Of a stretch of 64,000 bases of DNA, positions 35,069 through 38,863 are shown piece by piece. Under the pieces are notes generated by a model that saw nothing but the letters and a program-made list of their open reading frames with translations, was not told the DNA's origin and made no database searches. Origin of the DNA: Paenibacillus sp. FSL K6-3182. Lineage in GTDB: Bacteria; Bacillota; Bacilli; Paenibacillales; Paenibacillaceae. The DNA is taken from contig NZ_CP150265.1 in assembly GCF_037976325.1 (NCBI RefSeq), forward strand, positions 5,276,001 through 5,340,000. The letters run 5' to 3'. How positions within the stretch are numbered: the stretch's first letter is position 1; the number at the start of each line of letters is the position of its first letter. Both the position numbers and the translations under genes were made by a program.

Positions 35069-35431
35069 GATAGTCTCTTAGAAAAATAATCTGTTGTTCT
35101 GATCCATTTTTTCAGCTCTAACCTTTTCCATTATAGCCTTATCATTTAAATAGTCAGAGCCAGTAAGACCTCTATGTATATACTTAGATTGGAGATCATA
35201 CCAGTGTCCTACTTCGTAAAGAACTAATAAATATCAATAAAGGCGAAGTGTTTATTCAATTGCTCCTCCTAAAACGAGTAAGCATCCTTTTCTGATTCTA
35301 TTACCCATAGAAATTGCAATAACGAATAACTTCTTGTTTAAAAGATATTTCCTACCTCAGGCAGATGTCCAAGCGGGCAGGTTAATGCCTGCATTAAATA
35401 GTTAGATATTATAATTAGGAGGGATTTAGGT
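35069..35431. other. AT-rich intergenic stretch before the Ena genes
   Basis: No credible gene on either strand. A small hairpin GGGCAGGTTAATGCCTGC at about 35375-35392 and the ribosome binding site AGGAGGGATTTAGGT before 35432 are the only signals seen; no clear sporulation promoter was identified. Confidence 0.5.
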
Positions 35432-35806
35432 ATGGGTTGTAATAATTCTGCAACTGCTTTAACTTGTTGTGCTGATAAAAACTTTGTACAAGATAAAGTA
35501 TGTACCCCCTGGAGTGGCACCGTTGTCGCTGCTGACGTCCTAGTTGTCGTATTCACAAATAATATTAATCAAAATATTGTCGGTACCGGGTATTTGCAAT
35601 ACGACATCGGTCCAGATGATATTACATTTGATTTTCTCGACAGCACGGGAACTCCAATCAATGCTGCTCCATTTACACTCTCTCCCGGAACGAGTCTTGC
35701 TTTTACGTATAGGCGCTTCAGTGCCATTCAAATAACGCTTCCAGCAGCTTCACCAGGTACCTATCAAGGGGAGTTCTGCATAACTACCCGTTACCCTGTC
35801 CAATAA
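35432..35806 (+). CDS. Ena-type (DUF3992) endospore appendage pilin, first copy
   Basis: A 124-residue single-domain protein very like S-type endospore appendage subunits (Ena1A/Ena1B) of the Bacillus cereus group. The short N-terminal connector carries the Cys pair ALTCCADK, followed by FVQDKVCTPW; the core has INQNIVGTGYLQYDIG, FTLSPGTSLAFTYRRFSAIQ and the C-terminal GEFCITTRY. In Ena1B the connector cysteines form disulfides to a Cys near residue 24 and one in the C-terminal strand of neighbouring subunits; all four positions are kept here (12, 13, 24 and about 117). AGGAGGG precedes the ATG. Probably cotranscribed with the next gene. Confidence 0.85.
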   Translation: MGCNNSATALTCCADKNFVQDKVCTPWSGTVVAADVLVVVFTNNINQNIVGTGYLQYDIGPDDITFDFLDSTGTPINAAPFTLSPGTSLAFTYRRFSAIQITLPAASPGTYQGEFCITTRYPVQ

Positions 35807-35833
35807 AATAAACGAGTGGAGGGATAAAGGAAT

Positions 35834-36175
35834 ATGTGTGAAGCAAATTCTACACTTAGTTGTTGCTCAGACAAAGTCATTGTGCAAGATAAAGTGTGCT
35901 CGAATTGGCAATTAGCTGCAGCTGGGACCCAAATCATTTATTCGAACAATATATCACAAACCATCAATGGTACAGGATATGTTAAATATGAAACCGGTAC
36001 AGCACCATTAACAGTAAGCTTCTTCAGAACAGGAATCGTAGCAGCTATTCAAACTATAGTTATTCCTGTTGGAGGCAGTGCATCATTTACGGTAGCACGA
36101 TTTAATACCATTTCCTTAACTACGACGGCAGCAGCACAAGGGGAGTTTTGTATTACTGTCCGTTATAGTCTTTAA
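35834..36175 (+). CDS. Ena-type (DUF3992) endospore appendage pilin, second copy
   Basis: A 113-residue paralogue, closer still to Ena1B/Ena2A. TLSCCSDKVIVQDKVCSNW gives the connector Cys pair (10, 11) and core Cys 22; IIYSNNISQTINGTGYVKYE, GGSASFTVARFNTISL and GEFCITVRYSL follow, with the last cysteine at about 106. GGAGGG lies ten bases before the ATG and 27 bases separate it from the first copy. Paired paralogues match the Ena1A-Ena1B arrangement. No signal peptide, consistent with mother-cell assembly during sporulation. Confidence 0.87.
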   Translation: MCEANSTLSCCSDKVIVQDKVCSNWQLAAAGTQIIYSNNISQTINGTGYVKYETGTAPLTVSFFRTGIVAAIQTIVIPVGGSASFTVARFNTISLTTTAAAQGEFCITVRYSL

Positions 36176-36187
36176 TCTTATAGCTCA

Positions 36188-36235
36188 ATAATAAAGGATG
36201 GTTCTTCATTTATTGAAGAACCACCCTTTATTATT
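36188..36235. terminator. Bidirectional terminator between converging Ena-cluster genes
   Basis: AATAATAAAGGATGGTTCTT is nearly the inverse of AAGAACCACCCTTTATTATT around a short TCATTTATTGA loop; A/T-rich flanks allow use by both strands. Confidence 0.85.
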
Positions 36236-36836
36236 GTTCATTTAATGGAATAGGGTTCGAATGCAGAGCAATCGTAGTTGAAATTACATATTTCCCCTCA
36301 ATATAAAGTAATTCATTGCCTTTTGCAGAAACTTTTACGGACTTAATGCCTTCACCAATAAAATTAACCGTATTGCCAGGTGGTACAATCATTAGTTTAG
36401 TTTCTGTACCAACAATTTCTACTTCCAAAGGATCTGTGCTCGATGGACTCGAGTATATAGTAATTTGCGCCGCCTTAACTTTTGCTTCAATATCTGTCTC
36501 CCATATTTGAAGTCCCGTTAGATTACCCTGGAGTAATATATTTCCACAGCATTCTTTTTCGACCAGCATAGTCGCAGGATCAACGCAAGGTGGATCCGGG
36601 CAAGGTCTAGGACACGGCCTTGGACATGGTCTCGGTCTTGGTCTGTGACATCGCTTAGGAGGGCACGGAAATATCGGGAAACATCTCTTCCTTCGGGCTC
36701 TTTTTTTACAGCATTTTTTCATTATTATATATTTTGATTTTTGTTTATTTATTTGTATAAAAGAGGGTTTCACCATGAGAACATTCATTGATTCAAATAA
36801 GGGCTTTTTCCTTGAACAGTATCTCCTTTTCAGCAT
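36231..36836 (-). CDS. Arg/Pro/Cys-rich protein with possible Ena-like core (third subunit candidate)
   Basis: About 200 residues. The N-terminal part holds MKKCCKKRARRKRCFPIF and then RP/CP repeats (RPRPRPCPRPCPRPCPDPPC). From VEKECCGNILLQ onward about 100 residues look like a beta-sandwich (LQIWETDIEAKVKAAQITIY, MIVPPGNTVNFIGEGIKSVK) and an ECC motif precedes it, as in the connector of Ena subunits. It may be an Ena1C-like or tip/anchor subunit. The start is uncertain: ATG at 36836 has AGAGGGGGG upstream; ATG at 36722 (MKKCCKK) starts at the conserved-looking part but lacks a binding site. It converges on the two Ena genes. Confidence 0.6.
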   Translation of the reverse strand: MLKRRYCSRKKPLFESMNVLMVKPSFIQINKQKSKYIIMKKCCKKRARRKRCFPIFPCPPKRCHRPRPRPCPRPCPRPCPDPPCVDPATMLVEKECCGNILLQGNLTGLQIWETDIEAKVKAAQITIYSSPSSTDPLEVEIVGTETKLMIVPPGNTVNFIGEGIKSVKVSAKGNELLYIEGKYVISTTIALHSNPIPLNEQ

Positions 36837-36988
36837 ATTCCCCCCTCTTTCAAAAAACACATATTCCTGTTCATACTTATATTAAATGTATCTTTCCGGC
36901 ACATGGTTATACATTATCTGAATTTATTCCAAAAGAGGTCATATGCCTAGTAGATTTGACCTCCATTATCGAAATGAATGATTGATTA

Positions 36989-38863
<1,875 letters not shown>

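Follow-up and report, generated by a model that had tools for sequence, protein, structure and literature searches.

The closest described relatives of the system treated here are the S-type endospore appendages (S-ENA), so far known chiefly from the Bacillus cereus group and represented by Ena1A, Ena1B and Ena1C of B. paranthracis and by Ena2A of B. thuringiensis (PDB 7a02, 9i0y, 9t3p). These fibres are of high resilience and promote the adhesion of spores to each other and to surfaces (extract of PMC12921279). In Ena1B the connector residues Cys10 and Cys11 bond Cys109 and Cys24 of subunits 9 and 10 below (extract of PMC8619143), and the connectors point toward the spore (PMC12921279). Two collagen-like proteins, L-BclA and F-BclA, cap the fibres of the L- and F-type appendages (L-ENA, F-ENA) and have connector-like N-termini (extracts of PMC11952670 and PMC12921279); L-BclA has been reported at the S-ENA tips of B. 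paranthracis as well (extract of PMC12628813). A 2026 paper described the genes behind the S-ENA ruffles as unidentified (PMC12921279). Here we describe a gene cluster of Paenibacillus sp. FSL K6-3182, found in a window of 64,000 nucleotides (G000:C1:5276001-5340000) from the 7.56-Mb single contig of genome G000. We think it likely that this cluster is a four-gene S-ENA assembly locus of Paenibacillus, in which EnaA and EnaB form the shaft, EnaC the anchor and a collagen-like protein (CLP) the distal cap.

Shaft subunits and anchor protein

The core of the locus consists of three genes:

35432..35806, plus strand: enaA-like S-ENA shaft subunit, 124 amino acids; PF13157 E 1.6e-34, 118.7 bits
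35834..36175, plus strand: enaB-like S-ENA shaft subunit, 113 amino acids; PF13157 E 2.4e-33, 114.9 bits
36231..36836, minus strand: enaC-like anchor, an Arg/Lys/Pro/Cys-rich N-terminal linker and an Ena beta-sandwich domain; PF13157 E 3.6e-8, 33.8 bits

An earlier note on this DNA had placed two tandem DUF3992 proteins here, had stated that both keep the four cysteines cross-linking S-type fibres, and had proposed an S-type locus outside the B. cereus group. The search with the profile PF13157 that it had suggested bears out the family assignment. This profile is named 'Enas' (PDB entries still name these proteins DUF3992) and has a bit-score cut-off of 22, so that with 118.7 and 114.9 bits a chance match of EnaA and EnaB is excluded. 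Both proteins span nearly the full profile length and their genes lie 27 bases apart. Genome G000 contains three PF13157 matches, all within this cluster. The locus is also held by the companion genome G033 of the same species; EnaA of Paenibacillus sp. FSL A5-0031 is 100% identical.

The closest solved structure for EnaA is Ena2A of B. thuringiensis (PDB 9i0y, assigned after an extract of PMC11952670; phmmer E 5.2e-51) with 78 of 121 aligned residues identical, and for EnaB it is Ena1B (PDB 7a02; phmmer E 1.4e-31) with 59 of 109. EnaA and EnaB share 42% identity. All cysteine positions used for cross-linking in Ena1B, that is the connector CC and the equivalents of Cys24 and Cys109, exist in both proteins: in EnaA the CC pair is found at residues 12/13, Cys24 within VQDKVC and Cys116 within GEFC, and in EnaB the same elements are found at 10/11, 22 and 106. 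When 20 shaft subunits of the genus are aligned, no row departs from the cysteine of VQDK[VL]C, that of GEFC or the first of the connector pair; the second of that pair is conserved in 19 rows, L032 being the exception. The S-type locus outside the B. cereus group is supported by sequence, profile, solved-structure and synteny evidence, and disulfide-bonded pili on spores of this organism are plausible.

The reading frame of enaC extends to 36860; the start at 36836 was chosen as it directly follows GAGGGGGGAAT. The earlier description of the third protein, basic and Pro/Cys-rich with an ECC motif and a beta-rich core, holds as well. In the longer reading frame the linker contains 10 Cys, 17 Pro and 27 Lys/Arg in 99 residues, followed by the beta domain with ECC at residues 103-105, and the gene converges on enaA/enaB. 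What the earlier note did not contain is that this protein is itself a member of PF13157. Judged by its predicted features, the third protein is an anchor of the Ena1C type: it has an Ena domain with the Ena1C fold, a Pro/Cys-rich N-terminal linker and a gene opposite to enaB, as ena1C is placed opposite to ena1B (PMC12921279).

The cysteines of this anchor differ from those of Ena1C. No equivalent of Cys142 (EGRYC in Ena1C), which is needed for tethering in B. paranthracis, was found in the EnaC of the window, where a valine takes its place (EGKYV). Nor was an equivalent of the inter-chain ring disulfide Cys148-Cys154 found, since residue 105 is the last cysteine of EnaC. ECC in EnaC takes the place of EFA in Ena1C at the beginning of the domain. 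The named loci examined for relatives (see below) gave 32 EnaC-like reading frames corresponding to 31 genes, and 30 intact ones remained after the frame-broken L068 had been left out (L068:6795-7456, P. qinlingensis, enaC split between two frames). A cysteine at the ECC position is present in 29 of these 30 (exception L064) and a Cys142 equivalent in four (L060, L061, L064, L065), so that each of the 30 has at least one of the two. In the held-out loci the CC was found in 4/4 EnaC proteins and the Cys142 equivalent in 1/4. Our reading is that either acceptor cysteine could serve the anchor and that lineages differ in which one was kept. EnaC would then be a chemical variant of Ena1C and may function like it.

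We prefer to equate the ECC of EnaC with the Cys24 position of the shaft, because VEKECC lines up with VQDKVC and because the alignment offset would put C105 on Cys24; the structural alignments of EnaC to 9i0y and 7a02 start at an offset of 81 residues, as judged from the first and last aligned residues only. This assignment is opposed by an hhalign comparison of the shaft and anchor profiles, itself weak (probability 31.6%), which placed ECC on the connector CC and not on VQDKVC.

The collagen-like gene and the promoter-like elements

Next to enaC and on the same strand lies a gene that was absent from the earlier note:

36989..38206, minus strand: collagen-like protein (CLP) gene, proposed S-ENA tip fibrillum; PF01391 2.7e-17, head fold C1q/TNF

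Its reading frame extends to 38248, and the start at 38206 was picked for the AAAGGATGGGG ahead of it. The protein consists of a Cys-rich N-terminus, G-X-Y repeats and a C1q/TNF-like head.

The candidacy of this gene begins with its linkage. A CLP gene stands beside the cluster in all 12 further genomes of the genus with at least two PF13157 matches; the 13th genus genome fetched, G016, has one weak PF13157 match and no neighbouring CLP gene. We also scanned 44 named loci, several of which are the same contigs as the genus genomes and none of which comes from a B. cereus group genome. Shaft and EnaC were both recognised in 31 loci (triads below), and CLP is present in 29 of them, 28 found by script and L041 by reading, with one gene in between. 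The two triads not counted as having CLP are L040, which has a remnant, and L047, where the sequence ends 0.9 kb past enaC. Among the 13 loci outside the triad set, L066, where the contig ends, and L070 combine shaft genes with a CLP gene. In ten others (L071-L073, L075-L081) the EnaC profile had no match at E 1e-5; close by these a CLP gene was found in L076 only, that of L078 being 5 kb off, and L073 has a small PF13157 protein nearby. As the EnaC-negative loci are mostly without a near CLP, the linkage belongs to the S-type triads and not to all PF13157 loci. In P. chondroitinus (L063:5974-6655) a damaged enaA lies in a decayed locus where neither enaC nor CLP was seen, suggesting that the system was lost as a whole.

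A held-out set comprised 20 further stretches. Eight repeats of named loci were set aside and 12 were run, of which L174, L177 and L184 are repeats too, leaving nine new ones. The four triads among these (L168, L169, L175, L178) all have a CLP with the N-terminal motif fixed earlier, and no triad is present in L176, L183, L185, L186 and L187. L186 has a CLP 2 kb from a single subunit, with an N-terminus, HFACC, that falls outside the motif pattern.

The gene order varies. Most loci read A>B> <C <CLP; Gottfriedia and relatives have A>B>CLP>C>, Thermobacillus has CLP>C>A> and P. paeoniae A>B> <C CLP>. Because the linkage is kept through such rearrangement, a shared function of CLP and triad can be argued for.

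The second line of evidence is the N-terminus. In the ena-adjacent CLPs the collagen repeats are directly preceded by a Cys-rich stretch whose last residues are LSC[DN]G or similar. Of 28 such CLPs, 27 contain the pattern [LFVH][STYCF]C[DNCSA] (the miss being L058 with LACC); none of 18 other CLPs does. For the first group 29 rows were obtained, one of which, from the opposite strand of L062, is an artefact; L038 had been dropped as the same species, and L040, L041, L047, L049 and L074 gave no row. The controls were 13 CLPs with homologous heads from elsewhere in the genus (20 regions fetched, seven without a usable N-terminus) and five of six tried from the genome of the window. Since the pattern was picked after the ena-adjacent group had been seen, only the held-out result tests it. 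In two loci with a single subunit the CLP N-terminus resembles that of the neighbouring subunit: ESHFSCCH beside ESNFSCCN in L076, and DSHFACCH beside ESNFSCCN in L186.

In P. luteus (L046, also L030) the Cys-rich N-terminal module of CLP is tandemly duplicated. A three-subunit ena locus of the P. castaneae type adjoins a 167-amino-acid protein (L033:9101-9604) with similarity to BclA_C (31.5 bits, cut-off 38), the N-terminus NNSRFSCCQG and no collagen, which is perhaps a stalkless cap.

The third line of evidence comes from the intergenic regions:

35366..35400, plus strand: promoter-like element TGTCCAAGC-N17-CATTAAATA ahead of enaA, from an alignment of 21 upstream regions
36880..36908, minus strand: promoter-like element AACCATG...CATTTAATA ahead of enaC, from an upstream-region alignment
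38380..38413, minus strand: promoter-like element GTACAATC...CATTTACTA ahead of the CLP gene, one of three occurrences of a composite pattern in the window
36186..36236, no strand: inverted repeat in the interval of the convergent genes enaB and enaC, 23-nt arms with 96% complementarity, loop of 5 nt

Upstream of enaA, 21/21 aligned regions show a recognisable block of the type TGTCCAAGC-N17-CATTAAATA. The composite pattern, written after these three elements had been seen, occurs three times on both strands of the window, exactly before the three transcription units (enaA, enaC and CLP); its CATTWAMTA part alone occurs six times. A slightly wider pattern was found in 10 of 29 ena-adjacent CLP rows vs none of 18 controls, and in the held-out triads the composite pattern precedes enaA in 3/4 and CLP in 2/4. 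Across the genome, two pattern searches returned 2 and 8 matches; one of the additional matches (L107) lies inside a gene. A sigma-70 scan was uninformative (15 sites vs 9.7 +/- 3.6 in shuffles). The inverted repeat, with a terminator-like stem on the plus strand, is a probable bidirectional terminator. A GTCCAAGC-CATTTAMTA element was also seen ahead of the Ena subunit in L077 and L080.

Several observations speak against the proposed reading. The CLP of the window has LSCD, thus one cysteine only of the CC pair of the subunits, and the short motif was chosen post hoc. At least three cysteines near the repeats are not specific to ena-adjacent CLPs, being present in 28 of 29 ena-adjacent rows and in 9 of 18 controls. 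Heads of the same family occur in genomes without a PF13157 match (head in 31/51, PF13157 in 14/51 genus genomes), and the head model is of low confidence (pLDDT 55); CLP could sit elsewhere on the spore. The strict promoter pattern, with a background of 1.2% per 320 nt, is by no means general: it was found for enaA in 15 of 20 close named loci, for enaC in 5 of 32 rows and for CLP in 6 of 35 rows. Its -10-like CATTWAMTA resembles the B. subtilis sigma-K consensus GCATANNNTA (extract of PMC3416734) and departs from it.

Two further ideas were given up. The CLP head was rejected as a marker of ENA genomes, as it is also found in genomes without a PF13157 match. A sigma-K promoter is not claimed as proof of sporulation timing: CATTWAMTA departs from the consensus, and the -35-like parts differ between the genes.

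Proposed assembly and rival explanations

We propose the following model. At the spore coat EnaA and EnaB would build a helical fibre by beta-sheet augmentation, with the two connector cysteines of each subunit bonding Cys116/106 and Cys24/22 of subunits one turn below. A ring of EnaC, which the basic Pro/Cys linker would root in the coat, would hold the spore-proximal end and offer a Cys24-type acceptor (ECC) to the first connectors, unlike the Cys109/142-type acceptor of the B. paranthracis Ena1C. As S-ENA connectors point to the spore, free acceptor cysteines would be expected at the far end; there CLP may act as a cap whose Cys-rich N-terminus takes the role of a connector and forms bonds with these free cysteines, and whose collagen stalk presents the C1q-like head so that it can touch spores or surfaces. 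The observations made here are the gene identities, the cysteines and the conservation of the linkage and of the promoter-like elements. Fibre architecture, connector disulfides, ring anchoring and late-sporulation expression are taken from the literature on relatives, and EnaC ring formation, use of the ECC pair, the tip position of CLP, expression timing and assembly are inferred.

A more far-reaching version, to which we give about an even chance, is that the CLP gene is the missing S-ENA ruffle gene. The locus outside the B. cereus group would then be a complete anchor-shaft-tip kit with a switched acceptor in the anchor ring, tip and anchor would both be locked by connector/acceptor disulfides, and a connector-copying C1q cap would be common to S-, L- and F-ENA.

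Among the alternatives, the one that survives best, although we consider it rather unlikely, accepts shaft and anchor as described and takes CLP for a nap or coat protein of the BclA type, placed in this locus and sporulation programme for reasons other than a tip role, or for a part of the anchor. The head family also occurs in CLPs distant from any ena gene, the coat or the EnaC linker could be the cross-linking partner of the Cys-rich N-termini, and of the 29 named triad loci with CLP, 26 have it on the enaC side, as an anchor part might be. Against this, the CLPs found elsewhere, including the 13 with homologous heads, have basic or helical N-termini and the LSC-type motif in 0/18; the CLP gene lies between enaB and enaC in three named Gottfriedia/Bacillus triads; and CLP N-termini resemble the neighbouring subunit in L076 and L186. 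In addition, an NCBIfam scan at E up to 0.1 gave no exosporium-leader model, and L-BclA and F-BclA are precedents for a cap (PMC12921279; extract of PMC11952670). The tip position of CLP is our preferred reading.

It is very improbable that the Ena-family proteins form rings or coat patches without a protruding fibre in this organism. PF13157/DUF3992 domains do occur in the non-fibre proteins Ena1C and ExsL (PMC12921279), and no report of S-type fibres on Paenibacillus was found in the literature searched. However, 19 of the 20 aligned genus subunits retain the full set of cross-link cysteines, four in number (L032 lacking the second connector cysteine only), EnaA and EnaB are 54-65% identical to subunits self-polymerising in E. 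coli (extract of PMC11952670), and the anchor gene is present.

An L-type (ladder) appendage, suggested by the fold shared with Ena3A and by the linked collagen-like tip gene of L-ENA (PMC12921279), can be dismissed: phmmer at E up to 1 against solved chains returned Ena2A and Ena1B only for either subunit and not Ena3A, PF10612 (CotZ/ExsY) has no match in genome G000 at E 0.001, and two subunits are accompanied by an Ena1C-type anchor without a CotZ match. As PF10612 is not matched, an ExsY-type exosporium sheet also seems absent from this genome.

Distribution and comparison with known systems

PF13157 is matched in 14 of 51 genus genomes and 47 of 394 family genomes, and six of 18 anchor homologues in the protein database, all from Paenibacillus, are named 'S-Ena type endospore appendage' by NCBI. 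For these two reasons the locus is less novel than the earlier note held. The shaft itself adds a new member to a known kind; the novelty lies in the variant anchor and in the tip candidate gene linked to the triad.

One Paenibacillus isolate has been observed to bear F-ENA-like fibres (extract of PMC11952670). In the genome of the window an F-ENA cluster lies at L189:1835-3356 (G000:C1 about 5861334-5862855); it encodes a candidate F-Anchor, basic and collagen-like, that matches DUF4183, a 94-amino-acid DUF4183 subunit with the hook MPITKPF, and a 144-amino-acid protein starting MPIIYPI, by eye C1q-type and cap-like with a hook-like N-terminus. A second, partial F-ENA-like cluster (L188:1560-2583, G000:C1 about 5354559-5355582) encodes a collagen-like protein that matches DUF4183 as well as a 144-amino-acid protein starting MAIIYPIF, similar to the cap candidate of L189. 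L077-L081 (Neobacillus, Paenibacillus sp. FJAT-29882, Peribacillus, Sporosarcina, Anaerobacillus) have a single recognised Ena subunit each. In L078-L081 this subunit is opposite a protein of 306-314 amino acids, which in L080 has a PF13157 domain (1.8e-25). These loci perhaps represent another ENA subtype.

With shaft, anchor and candidate tip gene side by side, the question of the S-ENA tip fringe becomes genetically testable in Paenibacillus. The anchor variant raises the question how a ring can tether the fibre when it lacks a cysteine that B. paranthracis requires, and the locus offers building blocks for very stable protein fibres.

With the S-ENA of the B. cereus group the locus shares the subunit family, the four cysteine positions, two subunits plus anchor, the A>B> <C layout and a Pro/Cys-rich anchor linker. 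It differs in its Paenibacillus host and in the collagen-like gene that accompanies the cluster. Its anchor linker is strongly basic and about three times the 33 residues given for Ena1C, and in place of Cys142 and Cys148/154 the anchor has ECC at the presumed Cys24 position. CLP is like L-BclA and F-BclA, the tip fibrilla of L-ENA and F-ENA, in its collagen stalk, its C1q/TNF-like head, a gene near the fibre genes and, in part, a connector-resembling N-terminus, whereas it is linked to an S-ENA triad and its N-terminal motif is mostly LSC[DN] and not CC. A further S-ENA ruffle candidate, AGE80398.1 of B. thuringiensis kurstaki, was suggested from its similarity to L-BclA and a CC motif (extract of PMC11952670). 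By description it is like CLP in being collagen-like with a C1q head and a Cys-rich N-terminus. That proposal started from similarity to L-BclA, whereas the candidacy of CLP rests on conserved linkage and promoter-like elements.
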